Assembly: GCF_004353525.1 (NCBI RefSeq)
Contig: NZ_CP085524.1
Location: forward strand, 1,522,142-1,586,141
Length of the DNA: 64,000 nucleotides
Direction of reading: 5' to 3'
Source: Zhaonella formicivorans
Lineage (GTDB): Bacteria; Bacillota; DUOV01; Zhaonellaceae
Each line of letters opens with the position of its first letter. The first letter of the stretch is position 1. Of the stretch, positions 1,801 through 55,508 are shown piece by piece. The notes below the pieces were generated by a model. That model saw nothing but the letters and a program-made list of their open reading frames with translations, had not been told where the DNA came from and searched no databases. The position numbers were made by a program, and so were the translations under genes.

Positions 1801-2040
1801 ATCGGCCTTTGGCCGAGTCCTCAATCCTCAGCAGGCTAACGCCGTCGTTAGTCATTAGCTATCAGCCATCAGCTAGCAGCTGGCAGCTTTCAGCCTTCAG
1901 CTATCACCTGGCGGCCATAATTGCTGATGACTAGTAACTAATGGTTCCACAAGTCTACGGAAAAATACATGCAACCAAGGACTAACGACTAAGGACTAAG
2001 GACGCGGCTTTGGCCGGTGCTGGTGACTGATGGCCGGGTA
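1801..2040. repeat. Heptamer-array composite element (type I)
   Basis: Most of the 334-base gap between era and the DUF502 gene is this repeat. Left part: GGCCGAGTCC boundary, then period-7 units passing without a phase break from CGTTAGT/CATTAGC into TATCAGC/CATCAGC. Then a spacer containing ATACATGCAAC. Right part: an inverted array of ACTAACG/ACTAAGG units ending GGACGCGGC. The two ends are complementary, so the element is a long imperfect inverted repeat. The same arrangement recurs at 27.3, 29.3 and 48.4 kb. Confidence 0.8.
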
Positions 2041-14129: not shown

Positions 14130-14223
14130 GATCTCGTCCTTAGTCCTTAGTCGTTAGTCCCTAGTTGTGTCATTCTCATTATACTCGAATATTTTATTAC
14201 TAACGACGAATGACTAGCGACTA
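14130..14223. repeat. Heptamer arrays flanking mtaB 3' end
   Basis: Units CCTTAGT, CGTTAGT and CCCTAGT run left to right (14136-14166), followed about 35 bases later by the inverted ACTAACG, ACTAGCG and ACTAACG units. The second array encodes the last residues (VVSR) and the TAG stop of mtaB. Confidence 0.75.
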
Positions 14224-15536
14224 ACGACGGCACAGCCTTGTAATTGCCCTAACAAAGAATCCTTCGCCAACTCCTTTAAGTTTACCTGCACCAATTCCCC
14301 TCTCAGTTCTTGTTCCGAGGCAAATTTTACTTTTAAATAATTGCCGGTATGGCCTTCCCACAAGCCGTTTCCATCCCGCTGCTCCACCAGCACCTCCATG
14401 CTTTTTCCCAAAAACTTCCGGGCAAAACTTTGGGCCATCTTTTCCCCCAAGGCAATCATTTCTTTGCTTCTTTGTTCTTTCACTTCGGGGGCTACCTGGT
14501 TACGGTATGTGGCCGCCTTAGTCCCTGCCCTGGGCGAATACTTAAAGACATGCAACCCGGAAAAACCTATTTCCTCCACGAATTTTAAAGAATTCCGGTG
14601 TTGCTCACCGGTTTCTCCCGGAAAACCAACCATTACGTCGGTGGTTAAACCCAGGTCAGGAATCCTGGCCCTTAGCCGGCTGACTAAATCCCGGTATTCA
14701 TCCGTTGTGTACCGTCGCCGCATTCTATCCAGGATGTCATCGTCACCGCTTTGCAGCGAAATGTGGAAATGAGGACAAACAATTTCGGTAGTAGTGATGG
14801 TTTCAATAAATTCCGGGGTAAATTCGTTGGGATCCAAGGAACTGATCCTTAGGCGTTTCAATCCCCGGATCTTGGACAGCTGTCTCACCAGCCAGCCCAG
14901 ATCTACCTCGTCGTCCAGGTCTTGGCCGTAAGCGCCTGTATGGATCCCTGTCAGCACTATTTCCTTATAGCCATGCTCCACCAGACGCCTTACTTCTTGC
15001 AGCGTTTTCTCCGGGTCCCTGCTGCGCACCGGACCCCGGGCAAAAGGAATAATGCAGTAGCTGCAAAACTGCTGGCAACCTTCCTGGATCTTCAGAAAAG
15101 CGCGGACCCTGCCCGAGTGTTCAAGAGGCAGTTCTTCAAAATCCCTGGTATGCAGGATATCCCGCACCGCGTTCATAGGAGTTTTCTCCCGTTCGACCCT
15201 TTCCACCAATTCCAGGATACGGCTCCTGTCCTGGGTGCCAATAACCAGATCTACTCCCGGGATTTCCAGCACTTCCTCAGGAGATACCTGGGCATAGCAC
15301 CCGGAAACCACTACTGTCGCCGCCGGATTTTTTTTCACGGCCCGGCGAATCACCTGGCGCGATTTGCGGTCCCCTAAGTGGGTTACGGTGCAGGTGTGGA
15401 TAAGGTAAACATCGGCCACCTGGTCAAAATCAACCACTTCATAACCATGGTGACGAAAAATATTTAGCAAAGCTGCCGCTTCATTTTGATTTACTTTGCA
15501 ACCCAGCGAATGCAGTGCTACTTTTTTAGCTGCCAA
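14214..15536 (-). CDS. mtaB: tRNA ms2t6A methylthiotransferase MtaB
   Basis: Radical-SAM enzyme that methylthiolates t6A37 of tRNAs to ms2t6A. Three Cys of the N-terminal UPF0004 domain are seen (SLGCKVNQ, HTCTVT, SGCYAQ). The radical-SAM cluster CQQFCSYC and a C-terminal TRAM region (EVLVEQRDGNGLWEGHTGNY) follow. 440 residues, normal. The start overlaps the end of rsmE by 11 bases. Its final residues come from heptamer repeat DNA. Confidence 0.95.
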   Translation of the reverse strand: MAAKKVALHSLGCKVNQNEAAALLNIFRHHGYEVVDFDQVADVYLIHTCTVTHLGDRKSRQVIRRAVKKNPAATVVVSGCYAQVSPEEVLEIPGVDLVIGTQDRSRILELVERVEREKTPMNAVRDILHTRDFEELPLEHSGRVRAFLKIQEGCQQFCSYCIIPFARGPVRSRDPEKTLQEVRRLVEHGYKEIVLTGIHTGAYGQDLDDEVDLGWLVRQLSKIRGLKRLRISSLDPNEFTPEFIETITTTEIVCPHFHISLQSGDDDILDRMRRRYTTDEYRDLVSRLRARIPDLGLTTDVMVGFPGETGEQHRNSLKFVEEIGFSGLHVFKYSPRAGTKAATYRNQVAPEVKEQRSKEMIALGEKMAQSFARKFLGKSMEVLVEQRDGNGLWEGHTGNYLKVKFASEQELRGELVQVNLKELAKDSLLGQLQGCAVVSR

Positions 15537-17277: not shown

Positions 17278-17438
17278 CTTTCAGCCGGCAGCCATCAGCT
17301 TTTAGCCTTAATTTATCAGCTTAAAGTTAAGTTTTTAAATTAACAGCCGTGTAGGTAAGCTTGCAAAGATAATAGCAAATTGTTATCAAAGCTAATATCC
17401 AAGCTGACAGCTGATAGCTGAGGGCTGATAGCTACTTA
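17278..17438. repeat. Heptamer-array composite element (type II)
   Basis: Left array of TTTCAGC/CATCAGC units, a spacer of about 85 bases rich in A/T, and a right inverted array with TGACAGC, TGATAGC and TGAGGGC units. The ends are complementary. It fills the prmA-dnaJ gap and runs into the dnaJ stop codon. Confidence 0.75.
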
Positions 17439-18571
17439 AATGCTTCTTTCACTTTATCGAAAAAACCTTTTTCCTTAGCTTTCTGGTTATCCTGGGTTAG
17501 TGTTTTACCGAACTCCCGCAGCGCCTCTTTCTGCTTCTCGGTCAAATTGGTCGGCGTGACAACCACAATCTTGACATGATGATCGCCCCGACCGGTGCTC
17601 CTGAGCCGTGAGATGCCCCTGCCCTTGAGACGGAATGAAGTCCCAGTCTGAGTACCCTCGGGAATTTTTAACTTGATCATGCCGTCCAAAGTGGGGACCT
17701 GGATCTCATCACCCAGAGCTGCCTGCACAAAATTAATCTCGGCTTCTGAAATTACATCGTAACCCTTACGCTTAAACAGCTTATGAGGCTTGACGCTGAT
17801 AAACACATAGAGATCACCGGGAGGTCCTCCTAAAGAGCCGGCCTCGCCTTCGCCCGGCACCCGCAGCTTGGAATCGTTATCCACACCGGCAGGAATAGTG
17901 ATATGGATCTTCCTGAACCGCCGGACTTTGCCGCGTCCCTTACATTCGTGACAAGGTGTGCTTATAATGCGCCCGGTGCCGTGGCACTGGGTACACGTTT
18001 TAATAGTCTGGAAGCGTCCCAAAGGCGTGGACTGGGTAATCCTGACCTGGCCGGTACCTCCGCAAACGCTGCAAGCAGTCGGGTGGGTGCCTGGTTCGGC
18101 CCCCGACCCGTTGCACGTCGGACATTCCTCGGTCCTGGGGATTTCTATATCTTTTTCAACTCCAAAAGCTGCTTCCTCAAAAGTGATATCCAAATCATAG
18201 CGCAGGTCATCGCCTTTTTGCGGCCCTTGACGCTTTGCACTTCCGCCAAAACCGCCGAAGAACATGTCAAAAATGTCGCCAAAGCCTCCGAAATCGGCGC
18301 CTCCGCCAAAACCGCCAAAATCGCCGAATCCCCCAAAGCCCTGGTCTGAGGTGCCGGCGTGACCAAACTGGTCATAGCGGGCCCGCTTGTCGGGGTCGCT
18401 TAGCACATCGTAGGCTTCTTTAACTTCTTTAAATTTTTCTTCGGCCTCTTTGTCATTTGGATTCACGTCCGGGTGGTATTTTCTTGCCAGGGTGCGGTAA
18501 GCCTTCTTGATCTGCTCCGGGGTTGCATCCCGCCCAACACCTAATATGTCATAATAATCCCGTTTTGCCAA
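17432..18571 (-). CDS. dnaJ: Chaperone DnaJ
   Basis: Hsp40 co-chaperone that stimulates DnaK ATPase. J domain with HPD at residues about 33-35, a Gly/Phe-rich linker, four CxxCxGxG zinc motifs ([32 protein letters not shown]) and the C-terminal substrate domains. 379 residues. The TAG stop is provided by a heptamer unit. Last gene of the hrcA operon. Confidence 0.97.
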
Positions 18572-18631: not shown

Positions 18632-20464
18632 TTATTTCTTATCATCATCCATCACTTCGTAATCTGCATCCACTACGTTGTCGTCCTTAGCAGTTCCCTG
18701 TCCGGTTGCCCCCGGATTTCCTTGCTGGGCTCCGGCCTGCTGGTATATCTTGGTAGTCACCGCGTAAATGGCTTGGGAAAGGGCTTCTGATTTTTGTTTT
18801 ATTGTCTCCACATCGTCTCCCTTAACAGCTTCTTCCAGCTCACTCTTGGCTTTTTTAATGTTTTCCACATCAGCGCTGCCCAGTTTCCCTTCAAATTCTT
18901 TCAGTGTTTTTTCCGTCTGATAAATCAGGGAATCAGCCTGGTTTTTGGCTTCTACTTTTTCTTTGCGTTTCCTGTCTTCCTCGGCGTATTTTTCAGCGTT
19001 TTTAACCATTTCTTCGATTTCTTTTTCACTCAACCCGCTCGAGGATGTGATGGTGATCTGCTGCTGTTTGCCGGTGCCCAAATCCTTGGCTGAGACATGC
19101 ACAATGCCGTTAGCATCAATGTCGAACTTAACCTCAATTTGCGGTATTCCCCTGGGCGCCGGCGGAATGCCCGACAAAGTAAATCTGCCAAGGGTTTTGT
19201 TATCGGCCGCCATCTGCCGTTCGCCCTGCAGCACATGGATCTCCACGCTGGTTTGGTTATCAGCGGCAGTGGAGAAAATCTGGCTTTTAGATGTCGGGAT
19301 AGTGGTATTGCGCTCGATGAGCTTGGTAAACACCCCTCCCAGAGTCTCAATACCTAAGGAAAGCGGAGTGACATCCAAAAGCAGGACATCTTTAACTTCG
19401 CCGGTCAAAACTCCAGCCTGGATGGCTGCTCCCAGGGCCACACACTCATCGGGGTTAATACCCTTGTGGGGCTCTTTACCGATTAAGTTCTTGATTGCCG
19501 CCTGCACTGCAGGAACCCTGGTTGAACCTCCCACTAAAATAACTTTGTCAATGTCCTGGGGTTTAAGTCCCGCATCTGCCAAAGCCTGCCTGGTAGGCCC
19601 TAAAGTCTTATCCACCAGGTCAGCAATCAACTCTTCAAACTTGGCCCTGGTCAAAGTGATGTCCAAATGCTGCGGACCATCTTCAGTAGCAGTAATAAAA
19701 GGCAAATTGATATTAGTAGTTGTAACGCTGGAGAGCTCATGCTTTGCCTTTTCAGCCGCCTCTTTTAAGCGCTGCATGGCCATTTTATCTTTGCTCAAAT
19801 CAACACCGTTAGTTCTCTTAAATTCAGAGACCAGGTAATTCATAATCCTTTCATCGAAATCATCGCCGCCCAGACGGTTATTGCCGCTGGTAGCTTTAAC
19901 CTCAAATACGCCGTCGCCCAGCTCCAAAATAGATACGTCAAAAGTACCGCCACCCAGGTCGTAGACTAAGATGGTCTGGTCTTCTCCCTTATCCAAGCCG
20001 TAGGCGAGGGCAGCTGCAGTTGGCTCGTTAATAATCCGTAGTACTTCCAGGCCTGCAATCTTTCCGGCATCCTTGGTAGCCTGGCGCTGGCTGTCCGTAA
20101 AATAAGCGGGAACGGTGATTACAGCTTTCGTCACCGGTTCGCCCAGATAGCTTTCCGCATCGGCCTTTAGTTTTTGCAGGATAATGGCTGAGATCTCCTG
20201 GGGAGTGTATGATTTATCATCGATAGTTACTTTGTAATCAGTACCCATGTGTCTCTTGATGGAGATAATGGTGCGATCGGGGTTGGTAATAGCCTGGCGT
20301 TTTGCTACCTGCCCGACTAAGCGCTCGCCGTTTTTGGCAAAACCAACTACCGAGGGAGTGGTTCTGTTTCCTTCAGCGTTAGGAATGACTACAGCCTCGC
20401 CGCCTTCCATTACGGCGACGCAGGAGTTGGTTGTTCCAAGGTCAATCCCTATGACTTTGCTCAT
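18632..20464 (-). CDS. dnaK: Chaperone DnaK (Hsp70)
   Basis: ATP-driven chaperone. It begins [19 protein letters not shown], has the ATPase signatures [14 protein letters not shown] and [13 protein letters not shown], the substrate-binding domain ([14 protein letters not shown]) and a C-terminal disordered tail ending [12 protein letters not shown]. The start at 20462-20464 is preceded by GGAGGAAATGACA; seven in-frame residues upstream are not part of the family. 610 residues. Confidence 0.98.
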
Positions 20465-20597
20465 TGTCATTTCCTCCTTCTTCATTATATAGCAATGGGA
20501 TTAAGATGTTATTAGTAGCAAAATATTTAATTCAACAGTTATCCAGAGAGTTACTGTCGCTGGTTATTAGTTGTTGGCAACTATCAAATCATGCATA

Positions 20598-21221
20598 CTA
20601 CCCGTTATATTTAGCCACTTTAACCATGCTGGGCCTCAGCAACCTGTCATGCAGGGTATATCCTGTCTGCAGTTCTTCGGTAACTAAATTATCCTGCTCC
20701 GGATTTTCAGTCTCCACTTGCATTACCGCTTCGTGCTTTTCCGGATTGAAAGGCTGACCTACAGCTTCAATAGCCTGTAATCCTTCCTTTTCCAGGACTT
20801 CTTTTAACTGGCGGTAAATCATTTCCATGCCCGCCATAAAAGTGGCACCTTCGCCTCCTTTTGCGGAGGCAGAAAGCGCCCGGTTGAAATTATCCATTAC
20901 CGGCAAGAGGCTCACAATTAAACGCTCAATCCCGAATCTGGCCATATCCTCCAGTTCTTTACGGGACCTGCGCTTGAAGTTTTCGAAATCTGCTTGCAGC
21001 CTCTGCAAGCGGCTGAAAAGTTCTTCCGCTTCCTTTTCTTTGGATGCTAAACGGGCAGCTAAATCAAGCTGTTCACCTGCTGTCTCCTCTGGCTGCTTTG
21101 CTGCATCATCCTTTTGCTCTTCATTTACCTGGTCAATTGTCTCTCCTTCGTGGTTTGCTGCTGAAAAATCTTCTTGACCTGTTTCTTCTTTATGTAAATT
21201 TTCCTCCGGCACTCTGTTCAC
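20598..21221 (-). CDS. grpE: Nucleotide exchange factor GrpE
   Basis: Releases ADP from DnaK. Acidic disordered N-terminus, long coiled coil (ELFSRLQRLQADFENFKRRS) and the C-terminal beta domain (FNPEKHEAVMQVET, LQTGYTLHDRLLRPSMVKVAK). GTG starts at 21221 or, better spaced from GAGGGAAGG, at 21212. Only 6 bases after the chaperonin gene, so co-translated with it. Confidence 0.96.
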   Translation of the reverse strand: MNRVPEENLHKEETGQEDFSAANHEGETIDQVNEEQKDDAAKQPEETAGEQLDLAARLASKEKEAEELFSRLQRLQADFENFKRRSRKELEDMARFGIERLIVSLLPVMDNFNRALSASAKGGEGATFMAGMEMIYRQLKEVLEKEGLQAIEAVGQPFNPEKHEAVMQVETENPEQDNLVTEELQTGYTLHDRLLRPSMVKVAKYNG

Positions 21222-21227
21222 CTTCCC

Positions 21228-22796
21228 TCACTCTTCAAAGTCATCTTTTTCCTGCCCTTTCGATTTATATTCCTTCATTTTAATAATGGTATCGATCCTT
21301 AAAATTGCCTCAGCAACTTCGCCGGCAGCTTTCAAAGCATGAATTTTAACCAGAGCAGGGTCAATCACGCCCAACTCCAGCATATCAGCTATTTCCCCTG
21401 TATCGCAGTTCAAGGCATAAGCAATGCTGCCTTTTTCTGTTTGGGCAGCCAGCACATCAGCCATTTTTTCCAGCGGGTTAAAACCGGCATTGGAGACAAT
21501 TTGCGCGAACGGACGGCGCAAAGCCTCAACCACACAATCGATGCCGAAGGCAGCCATACCTTTTACTTCCTGGCGTCCCCTCTCCACATGCTGAGCGGCG
21601 GCAAGCTCGATGGCTCCCCCGCCGGGTACCACCCCGCCTTTAACTGCAGCCTGAACTGAACTGGCAGCATCCTTGGCAATGCGTTCCCTTTCTCCTACAA
21701 CCTCTTCGGTTGCAGCCCCAACCAGAATTGTAGCCATAGGTTTGCCATAACCCCCCAGGATACGGACCTGCTCCAGTTTTTCATCTTCGTAAATCTGTGC
21801 AGCTTTGCCTAAATACTTTTCCAACTCCTCCGGGTCTTTTTTTAAACCGGTCCTTTTGATCAAACGGGCCCCGCAGTGTTCCATGGCCTTACGCAGTTCC
21901 TTGTAGGCTACCCTTTGGACCACCATCACCCCGGCATCGGTTAAAATTTCTTCCGCCAGGGGAGACACTCCGCGGTCAACTAAAACCAGTTTAACCCCCA
22001 AATGAATAATTTTATGCAGGTTGTTTTTAAACTCGTTTTGCAGTTCGAGATAACGTCTAACACCTGCCTCGGTGGCAAGGGCCTCCTCCTCAATTTCCTC
22101 CGGTTCCAAAGCATCGTCAACAACTAATACCTTGGCTTCCTCAAATTTCAATGGCATTTGGGGGTTCATTCGCTCTTTGTTAATGATAATGCCCTCAAAC
22201 ACCTCATTCTCGGCCCCAACCTGGGCAGTCACCGTATCAGCCAGTTTAAAATTAGGTTCTTGGAGCTTTTCAAGTCCGATTAAAGCAGCCGCCCTGATGG
22301 TTAAGTCGGCGATATCCTGGTGTTCCCTGCCCGCCACCAACGCTACTTGCTTTAAAAGGGGACTGTTCAAATCATCAAGGTGCATGGCTTGTTCCTTAAA
22401 AAAGGCCAGTGCCCTGTTGACACCGACCCGCAGACCTTCAATCACCTTGGCTACAGGAACACCTTTAATTACTTGCTCCATTCCGGCGTTAACCAGACTT
22501 CCTGCCATAATGGTAGCAGTGGTAGTGCCATCCCCTATTTCTTCTTGCTGTGCTTTAGCGATGTTAATCAGCATCCTTGCTGCCGGATGGTTGACTTCCA
22601 TTAGATTTAAAATAGTTACACCATCGTTGGTAATAACCACACCGCCAAATTTGTCCACTAACATGGTATCCAGGCCTTTTGGCCCCAGAGTACCTTCCAC
22701 TGCGGAGGCAATGGCCCTGATAGCATTGGCATTAGTGGACAAAGCGGCCAAGCGCTCATCCACCTCAGCATTATTGCTAACCTGTTTTACACTCAT
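21228..22796 (-). CDS. Thermosome-like (group III) chaperonin
   Basis: A 522-residue TCP-1/Cpn60-fold chaperonin closer to archaeal thermosomes than to GroEL. Seen: LGPKGLDTML (residues 37-46), NDGVTIL (57-63), the ATP-loop GDGTTTATI (88-96), the likely catalytic Asp in ERIAKDAASSV (D376) and VVPGGGAIELA. The apical region (about 200-310) contains a long polar insert (EPEEIEEEALATEAGVRRYL) like the built-in lid of group II proteins, so no GroES would be needed. The C-terminus lacks the GGM tail of GroEL. Such proteins are known from Carboxydothermus and relatives, encoded in the dnaK operon, exactly as here. ATG with AGGAGAA upstream. Confidence 0.93.
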   Translation of the reverse strand: MSVKQVSNNAEVDERLAALSTNANAIRAIASAVEGTLGPKGLDTMLVDKFGGVVITNDGVTILNLMEVNHPAARMLINIAKAQQEEIGDGTTTATIMAGSLVNAGMEQVIKGVPVAKVIEGLRVGVNRALAFFKEQAMHLDDLNSPLLKQVALVAGREHQDIADLTIRAAALIGLEKLQEPNFKLADTVTAQVGAENEVFEGIIINKERMNPQMPLKFEEAKVLVVDDALEPEEIEEEALATEAGVRRYLELQNEFKNNLHKIIHLGVKLVLVDRGVSPLAEEILTDAGVMVVQRVAYKELRKAMEHCGARLIKRTGLKKDPEELEKYLGKAAQIYEDEKLEQVRILGGYGKPMATILVGAATEEVVGERERIAKDAASSVQAAVKGGVVPGGGAIELAAAQHVERGRQEVKGMAAFGIDCVVEALRRPFAQIVSNAGFNPLEKMADVLAAQTEKGSIAYALNCDTGEIADMLELGVIDPALVKIHALKAAGEVAEAILRIDTIIKMKEYKSKGQEKDDFEE

Positions 22797-22804
22797 CTAC
22801 AGTT

Positions 22805-22936
22805 CTCCTTCTTGCAACCTTCGGTCGAGTCCTTAGTCATTAGTCCTTAGTATTTAAACGTAAAAGAACAGGGAAAAGTCTCAAAAGGCAACTAAAAACT
22901 AACGGCTAAAGACTGACGACTAACGACTTGGCCGAA
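22805..22936. repeat. Heptamer-array element (type I, short spacer)
   Basis: Left: GGTCGAGTCCTTAGTC with CATTAGT and CCTTAGT units. Right: inverted CTAACGG, CTAAAGA, CTGACGA and CTAACGA units ending TTGGCCGAAGGCC. The boundary GGCCG motif matches the other type I copies. It lies inside the heat-shock operon, between hrcA and the chaperonin gene. Confidence 0.75.
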
Positions 22937-22941
22937 GGCCA

Positions 22942-23973
22942 TTATTTTAGCAGCTTAGCTAAAACCTGCGAAAGATTCTCCGTCACGCACTCCACCAGAC
23001 TAACCGCTTTGGAATAAGCCATTCGGGTCGGGCCCAAAATACCCAAGGTACCCAAAACGACCCCGTCAACCTGGTAGGTGGCGGTTATAAGGCTGCAACC
23101 ATTAATTTCCTCGTATTTATTTTCCCCACCAATTCTAATAGTTAATCCCAGTTCCGGCTTCACTTCCATAAGGTCTTTTAAGACGCTTTCCTTTTCCAAC
23201 ACGCCGAGCAAACTTTTTAGTTTATCAATATCCTTAAATTCAGGCTGGTTAAAAATGTTTAGCGTCCCACCCAGGTAAACCTTATCGTTTAATTTGGAAC
23301 AGGCAAGCTGTTCTATCACGTCTAAGACATGACTTACAAGGTTTTTATAGCTGGCAAGTTCACCGTAAATGTCATACAGCGTGTCCCTTTTTACTTGCTC
23401 CAGCGCAAACCCCTGCAGCCTGTCGTTTAAGACAAGACTTATTCTTTCCAAGTCGGCCGGAGTGATACTTTCCGGAATATCTAAAATACGGTGCTGCACC
23501 AGCCGGGAGTTGCTAACCACAATCATCAGAGCACTTCCAGGACTTAACGGCATAAGCCGGATCTGACTGAACGTGCGTCTCCCTAACTGAGGCCCCAAAA
23601 TCAAAGCGGTGTAATTGGTCATTTCAGACAAAACCTCGCTGGCCTGCCTGATGACCGCTTCGATTTCCTCCATCTTTTGCGAGAAGCGGTACCTGATATA
23701 TTCTTCTTCCGCCTGGTTCAGATTTTCTTTTTCCATTAGGCAGTCCACATAGTACCTATATCCTAAATCCGAAGGGATCCTTCCTGCCGAAGTATGGGGC
23801 TGCTCAATATACCCCAGCTCCTCCAAATCGGCCATTTCATTGCGAATAGTTGCCGGACTCACGCCCAAATCGTATTTGCGGGCAATAGTTCTGGATCCAA
23901 CGGGTTCTGCGGTAGCAATATAGTCTTGAATGATGGCCTGTAGCACCTTCTTTTTCCGCTCGTCCATCGGCAT
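22942..23973 (-). CDS. hrcA: Heat-inducible transcription repressor HrcA
   Basis: Repressor that binds CIRCE; activity depends on a chaperonin (GroEL in most bacteria). N-terminal winged helix: SRTIARKYDLGVSPATIRNE, then LEELGYIEQPHTSAGRIPSD. A GAF-like domain and dimerisation region follow. Start at the ATG 23971-23973 (AAAGGGTG upstream), 343 residues. A CIRCE site sits 16 bases before the start, so the operon is autoregulated. Confidence 0.97.
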   Translation of the reverse strand: MPMDERKKKVLQAIIQDYIATAEPVGSRTIARKYDLGVSPATIRNEMADLEELGYIEQPHTSAGRIPSDLGYRYYVDCLMEKENLNQAEEEYIRYRFSQKMEEIEAVIRQASEVLSEMTNYTALILGPQLGRRTFSQIRLMPLSPGSALMIVVSNSRLVQHRILDIPESITPADLERISLVLNDRLQGFALEQVKRDTLYDIYGELASYKNLVSHVLDVIEQLACSKLNDKVYLGGTLNIFNQPEFKDIDKLKSLLGVLEKESVLKDLMEVKPELGLTIRIGGENKYEEINGCSLITATYQVDGVVLGTLGILGPTRMAYSKAVSLVECVTENLSQVLAKLLK

Positions 23974-23989
23974 GCCAATCACCCTTTTG

Positions 23990-24016
23990 TTAGCACTCTG
24001 AACCGTTGAGTGCTAA
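23990..24016. promoter_or_regulatory. CIRCE operator
   Basis: Perfect TTAGCACTC-N9-GAGTGCTAA inverted repeat, the HrcA binding site. It lies just downstream of the promoter elements and upstream of hrcA, controlling hrcA, the chaperonin, grpE, dnaK and dnaJ. Confidence 0.97.
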
Positions 24017-24030
24017 GATTTTATACTTAA

Positions 24031-24059
24031 AACGTATCATGCCCCTTGCCATTTGTCAA
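24031..24059 (-). promoter_or_regulatory. Promoter of the hrcA operon
   Basis: Minus strand TTGACA (24054-24059), 17-base spacer, TACGTT (24031-24036) as the -10. The CIRCE repeat starts about 15 bases further, covering the initial transcribed region. Confidence 0.75.
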
Positions 24060-27307: not shown

Positions 27308-27500
27308 AAAAGCCGCGTTCTTAGTCCTTGCTCGTAAGTCGCTAGCTGTCAGCCATCAGCTATCAGCAATTAGCCGTTGGCTTTTTCCGCAAAAACCATA
27401 CATGCAACTAAGGACTAACGACTAAAGACTAAGGACTCGGCCAAAGGCCGATGCTGGCAACTGAGGACTGGTGACTGAGGACTGATGACTAAAGTTGTCC
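27308..27500. repeat. Heptamer-array composite element (type I)
   Basis: Left: CGCGTTCTTAGTCC, then units into CAGCTATCAGC. Spacer includes ATACATGCAAC as in the copies at 1.8, 29.3 and 48.4 kb. Right: ACTAAGG/ACTAACG units ending ACTCGGCCAAAGGCC, then a second run of ACTGAGG and ACTGATG units. Occupies the lepA-murJ gap. Confidence 0.8.
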
Positions 27501-29149: not shown

Positions 29150-29455
29150 GAATGCATGCTAGCCATCAGCCTGCAGCTATCAGCCGTCAGCAGCCAGCTA
29201 TCAGATAGTTTACTGCTGCGTAACCCTCTGCGTCTTAATCATCAGTCCTTAGTCCCGGTAAGCTGCGCCGACGTTAGTCATTAGTTTTCAGCTTTCAGCC
29301 ATCAGCTCTCAGCAATCAGCAATTGGCTTCATAATTACTAATGACTACGTGGCTAATAGTTTTATAGGCCGACAATAGCCATACATGCAACTGAGGACTA
29401 ACGGCTAACGACGCGGCTGCAAGCATTGCCGGAGTGCCTGGAAACTATATGCAGC
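29150..29455. repeat. Two adjacent heptamer-array elements
   Basis: The 391-base gap 29118-29508 is almost all repeat. 29150-29260: AGCCATCAGC/CAGCTATCAGC arrays and CATCAGTCCTTAGTCC. 29262-29435: a type I element starting GCCGACGTTAGTCATTAG, then AGC arrays, the shared spacer (TTCATAATTACTAATGAC and ATACATGCAAC) and an inverted array ending CTAACGACGCGGC. The spacer is nearly identical to that at 48.4 kb. Confidence 0.8.
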
Positions 29456-38631: not shown

Positions 38632-38768
38632 ATTAATCATTAGTCGTTAGTTTTCAGCTTTTCAGCTGTCAGCCATCAGCGGCTAGTTACCGGCGACTGG
38701 CTGTTGACTAACGAGTAGCCGTAGGTCTGTGCATAAACTAAGGACCAACTACCAAGGACTAAGGACGA
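38632..38768. repeat. Heptamer-array composite element (type I)
   Basis: Left CATTAGTCGTTAGTTTTCAGC units; centre contains CGAGTAGCCGTAGGTCTGTGCATA, which recurs reversed at 9.7 kb; right inverted ACTAAGG and ACCAAGG units ending AAGGAC. The last unit supplies the comEC stop codon. Confidence 0.8.
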
Positions 38769-41105: not shown

Positions 41106-41204
41106 CGACCTCCGGTCGAATCTTTAATCGTTAGCAACAGCTTTTAGGCCAGTCAGCCGACGGGCAATTGCTGACGGCTGAAGGCTAACGACTAACGACT
41201 AATA
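41106..41204. repeat. Heptamer-array hairpin between comEC and comEA
   Basis: GGTCGAATCTTTAATCGTTAGC on the left; on the right TGACGGC, TGAAGGC, TAACGAC and TAACGAC units. The two sides are imperfect complements, so a single long RNA hairpin is possible in the comEA-comEC transcript. It overlaps the comEA stop and the comEC ribosome binding site. Confidence 0.7.
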
Positions 41205-55259: not shown

Positions 55260-55508
55260 AAAGCTGGCAGCTATCGCAGCTATCAGCTTGTAGCCGTCAG
55301 CTTACAGCAAACAATTATCTTTAACTTGCCGAGATAAAGCATACTTACAAAAAATACCGATATGCCTGATGGCTGGTAGAAACTATTACTTACAACTACA
55401 GCTGATGGCTAATCACTGACGACTAAGGACTAACGACTTAACCATAAGTGTACTTGCGGCTTACGCCGCGTTAGCCTGCCGGTGGCTGGGGACTAATAAG
55501 GACTAAGA
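55260..55508. repeat. Heptamer-array elements between rplU leader and rng
   Basis: Left AGCTATC/AGCCGTC arrays, an A/T-rich spacer sharing ATTATCTTTAACTTG-like sequence with 25.3 kb, right arrays TGATGGC, TAATCAC, TGACGAC, TAAGGAC and TAACGAC, then GCGGCTTACGCCGCG and GGACTAATAAGGACTAAG. Its last unit is the rng stop codon. With leader and promoter this fills 55097-55502. Confidence 0.75.

Follow-up and report, generated by a model that had tools for sequence, protein, structure and literature searches.

The window, a stretch of 64,000 nucleotides from Zhaonella formicivorans, carries a gene (cpn) whose product classes as a Group III chaperonin on almost all of the features examined. The gene very probably belongs to an HrcA-repressed operon and is induced together with GroEL, beside which its product would form a second folding chamber independent of GroES. 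The identity of the protein, its predicted fold, the operon, the operators and the co-occurrence with GroEL were established in this analysis; earlier publications already cover the class itself, its crystal structures, its dnaK-operon position and its HrcA control. Techtmann and Robb reportedly described the arrangement of a lidded chaperonin in the HrcA/dnaK operon in 2010. The arrangement is real and common in related bacteria, and the finding is an ordinary and well-explained one.

The window sequence and profile matches gave the gene order hrcA-cpn-grpE-dnaK-dnaJ on the minus strand, with hemW before hrcA. The features of the region are as follows.

24054..24059, minus strand: candidate -35 box TTGACA
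24031-24036, minus strand: candidate weak -10 box TACGTT, 17 bases downstream of TTGACA
23990..24016: CIRCE operator TTAGCACTC-N9-GAGTGCTAA, a perfect 9-9-9 repeat just before hrcA
22942..23982, minus strand: hrcA, heat-inducible repressor (TIGR00331, 360 bits against a cut-off of 197; PF01628)
22797..22941, minus strand: hrcA-cpn spacer of 145 bases, containing an inverted repeat with 33-nt arms made of heptad (TTAGTCN) repeats
21228..22796, minus strand: cpn, Group III chaperonin of 522 aa (ATG start, AGGAG-type Shine-Dalgarno, PF00118; predicted lid helices within residues 237-265)
20598..21221, minus strand: grpE, nucleotide exchange factor (NCBIfam NF010738, above cut-off)
18632..20485, minus strand: dnaK (TIGR02350, 969 bits)
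17432..18571, minus strand: dnaJ (TIGR02349, 482 bits)

The cpn stop is separated from the grpE start by 6 bases, and location inside the dnaK operon is a feature of Group III genes. The initial annotation had placed a 522-residue chaperonin at 21228-22796 between hrcA and grpE and had read a GDGTTTATI loop in it; the coordinates agree with the sequence and the loop is exact, the motif in the cpn product being GDGTTTATIMAG. The putative promoter was read directly from the sequence; the TTGACA/TACGTT pair was missed by a consensus scan that needs four of six positions in each hexamer.

A perfect CIRCE upstream and an encoded, TIGR00331-positive HrcA place the operon in the HrcA/CIRCE regulon, so that the control of the chaperonin by CIRCE, claimed earlier, appears sound at the level of sequence. 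A passage of PMC5904260, citing Techtmann and Robb 2010, describes HrcA repression, relieved on heat shock, for the genes of Type III chaperonins. When up to two mismatches were allowed, three CIRCE sites were found in the entire genome of 3,314,304 bases, one ahead of each chaperonin operon, and a reversed CIRCE control pattern gave no sites in the same genome (3.31 Mb). The search of the full genome for groEL and groES that had been suggested revealed two complete groESL operons (L002 and L003, at G000:C1 ~3,069,300 and ~14,800), each preceded by CIRCE. Among the sites listed for a sample of 25 carriers of the Group III gene, CIRCE stands ahead of hrcA-cpn and of every groESL. The two GroELs of the window's genome are not each other's nearest relatives among the GroELs sampled in the tree.

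Identity and predicted fold of the chaperonin

Among solved structures, the sequence search matched the cpn product best with 9RWQ (683 bits) and then with 5X9U, the chaperonin Ch-CPN of Carboxydothermus hydrogenoformans. The search output tags 9RWQ as ACII; according to PMC12696368 it is ACIII, the reconstructed ancestor of Group III. ACIII has the same domain make-up as the window protein and is a laboratory reconstruction, not a natural protein.

To place the protein we calculated a maximum-likelihood tree of 46 rows, comprising 20 Group III, 15 archaeal and 11 GroEL sequences. Desulforamulus aquiferis (L054) was excluded from the tree and from the structural model owing to draft frameshifts in hrcA, cpn and dnaJ. 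The three groups separated with supports of 100/98, 99/98 and 100/100. The window protein lies well inside the Group III clade with Ch-CPN (100/98), a split present in 100% of 200 bootstrap trees, and this clade falls on the side of Group II, far from GroEL. As the branches between groups are long and drew a program warning, we draw on group membership only and leave aside the order in which the groups branch. The phylogeny proposed in the initial annotation thus assigned the chaperonin to Group III and not to GroEL.

The published marks of Group III are a missing nucleotide-sensing loop, Arg155, the catalytic aspartates and a lid that falls short of the Group II length (PMC5635000). In the alignment the window protein has a 6-residue gap at the nucleotide-sensing loop relative to all 15 Group II rows, R157 at the position of Ch-CPN Arg155, and D58 and D376 at those of Asp56 and Asp373; its lid columns hold 51 residues, compared with 55 in Group II and 38 in GroEL. 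Four lid residues of Ch-CPN (Leu237, Phe243, Tyr246 and Phe253) were reported to be strictly conserved in Group III (PMC5635000). Three of the four are kept in the window protein, Phe243 being replaced by Val246, and a valine is also found there in one family relative. Only Leu237 is invariant in our set of 20 Group III sequences, and therefore these residues are no firm defining mark of the class.

An AlphaFold model based on the window protein together with nine relatives reached a pLDDT of 88.5 and a pTM of 0.83. It predicts a helical protrusion, with helices at residues 237-241 and 243-265, which bears out in the model the group II-like lid region noticed earlier. The best structural matches were 5X9V and 5X9U (TM 0.86-0.87, 48% identity), with thermosomes and CCT scoring lower; together with the tree, this upheld the match to the group III chaperonins of Carboxydothermus.

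Comparison with the named systems gives the same assignment. The window protein resembles Ch-CPN (5X9U/5X9V) in fold, lid, missing nucleotide-sensing loop, Arg and Asp catalytic residues and place in the dnaK operon, and differs from it in sequence (~48% identity) and in the valine that replaces phenylalanine at one lid residue. For groESL the comparison covers the window's genome, which has two such operons. With the archaeal thermosome of Group II the protein shares the overall fold and a built-in helical lid, but identity is ~30% and the thermosome has a nucleotide-sensing loop, a lid about 4 residues longer and a clade of its own; lacking that loop and standing outside that clade, the window protein is no Group II member. 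GroEL, of Group I, is likewise a Cpn60-family protein with the catalytic aspartates and under HrcA/CIRCE control, but it depends on GroES, has no built-in lid and forms a separate clade, whereas the window protein carries the lid insert and lies outside the GroEL clade.

Distribution of the gene and its GroEL company

Among 399 species of the phylum, a Group III profile search found the gene in 126; for good genomes the figure is 112 out of 356. The hrcA gene lies directly upstream of cpn in 79 of the 80 carriers examined for it. In the one exception (G161), cpn, grpE and dnaK are on one contig and hrcA is on another, and the 572 bases that remain ahead of cpn gave no HrcA match. The same gene order with a perfect CIRCE was seen at loci of Peptococcaceae, Syntrophomonadaceae, a Bacillaceae draft and two Paenibacillus species. 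In an Armatimonadetes draft the cpn-grpE pair is likewise preserved; its locus starts just before cpn, so that the position of hrcA falls beyond its edge.

GroEL is present in 123 of the 126 Group III carriers, and the three in which it was not found (G260, G312 and G320) are all drafts. A carrier free of GroEL would have served as a natural test of feedback between Group III and HrcA, but none of the three is convincing. G260 was rejected as a GroEL-free carrier since its genome is 63% complete, and G312 since groES and the first 28 groEL codons run off a contig edge. In the G320 draft neither GroEL nor GroES was found and the Group III protein is the sole chaperonin detected. This case is unconvincing: in the roughly half of the draft that was read (0.90 Mb), guaA is truncated by a contig end, and in a relative, G274, guaA lies just past groESL, which indicates that the draft probably lacks the groESL neighbourhood. 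Overall, incompleteness of the drafts accounts, or probably accounts, for the three gaps. In G320 (L154, L190) CIRCE also stands ahead of an Hsp20-type small heat-shock operon.

Apparent in-frame stops in the cpn genes of G312 and G375 were dismissed, as they fall at or past the natural gene end. G017 (2,936,195 bases) has a broken gene: near the apical-intermediate junction it is split by nine AT units (L030, 3820-3960), a run four bases longer than in the intact gene of a member of the same genus (L186, G134), which puts the remainder out of frame. The gene may have decayed, or the run may act as a switch prone to slippage. The same genome keeps hrcA, CIRCE and groESL intact.

The count of Group III members stood at 195 in 2017 (PMC5635000). 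The present analysis adds a well-supported member to this published class and supplies counts for its spread (about one third of the sampled species of the phylum), its fixity beside hrcA and the regularity of its GroEL company. The class offers many genomes in which to ask why a lidded chaperonin linked to DnaK persists in a bacterium that also has GroEL.

Origin, proposed working and the partner of HrcA

Two other origins of the gene were considered. A divergent GroEL paralogue would share the PF00118 family, as the window protein does, and the protein is 25% identical to GroEL from the same genome; this origin is refuted by the tree placement, the lid segment absent from GroEL and the fold match. 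The lineage might instead have recently acquired an archaeal thermosome gene by transfer into its dnaK operon. This would agree with the higher scores of thermosome profiles over GroEL profiles, but it is very improbable: the protein is nested in a bacterial Group III clade that is deep and supported apart from Group II, and many families of the phylum have Group III genes at the same operon position. Group III as a whole may still stem from an ancient transfer at its base.

Ch-CPN is known to be a 16-mer of two eight-membered rings that closes and refolds proteins independently of GroES (PMC5635000). By analogy with such relatives, the window protein would assemble into a 16-mer with ATPase and refolding activity. 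This double ring, driven by ATP, would close without GroES, each subunit bringing a helical lid of its own. HrcA bound at CIRCE would repress a single operon producing HrcA, the Group III chaperonin, GrpE, DnaK and DnaJ. GroEL keeps HrcA active in the GroE titration model reviewed in PMC6032397. As in relatives, heat or another stress would raise misfolded protein and draw GroEL off HrcA, HrcA activity would be lost, and the three chaperonin operons (the dnaK-type operon and two groESL) would be derepressed jointly. The Group III ring would then serve as the second, GroES-independent folding chamber beside GroEL. It probably receives clients from DnaK and DnaJ, which is the least certain step; sharing of clients with DnaK is a published suggestion, and no demonstration of a hand-over from DnaK to Group III was found in the literature.

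It had also been suggested that the chaperonin could be the feedback partner of HrcA. In a rival reading along this line, Group III would take the folding or feedback role towards HrcA, replacing GroEL or adding to it, and the adjacency of the genes would reflect the partnership. In one form of this idea it would bind and mature HrcA, giving the dnaK operon a chaperonin-repressor loop of its own, parallel to that of GroEL. The near-constant adjacency of hrcA and cpn (79/80), kept also in Paenibacillus members, speaks for such a partnership. Against it, the known partner of HrcA is GroEL, which the same regulon encodes in two CIRCE-controlled groESL operons, so that feedback through Group III is unnecessary. 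GroEL also accompanies Group III in 123/126 carriers, the exceptions being drafts with gaps at groESL sites or of low completeness, and 273 of the 399 species do without Group III. In Bacillus subtilis, HrcA with GroEL functions without Group III. The two groESL operons and the persistence of HrcA and CIRCE in G017 beside a broken cpn mean that nothing requires Group III as the partner of HrcA. We consider the general partnership improbable, and the maturation loop equally so. The tree, lid and operator thus sustain one half of the earlier interpretation, a Group III chaperonin under HrcA/CIRCE, and the HrcA feedback role is unsupported.

The spacer between hrcA and cpn

The hairpin in the hrcA-cpn spacer could partially uncouple cpn from hrcA, a point against the reading proposed here. 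A conserved hairpin at this position was rejected: the spacers of relatives lack the inverted repeat and are mostly short and unstructured, indicating that the hairpin in the window stems from a local repeat and is not a shared feature.

This hairpin is one copy of a dispersed heptad repeat. The (TTAGTCN)n motif and its inverted form have 18 matches in the window, compared with 0.01 expected, and none of these lies within a long open frame. The repeats are located at window positions 1973-1999, 14133-14224, 22826-22938, 27406-27492, 29235-29254, 38633-38652, 41183-41202 and 55414-55440. They are similar to the short heptamer repeats that occur in tandem in cyanobacteria. In the genome, BLAST placed the heptad repeat at 61 sites.
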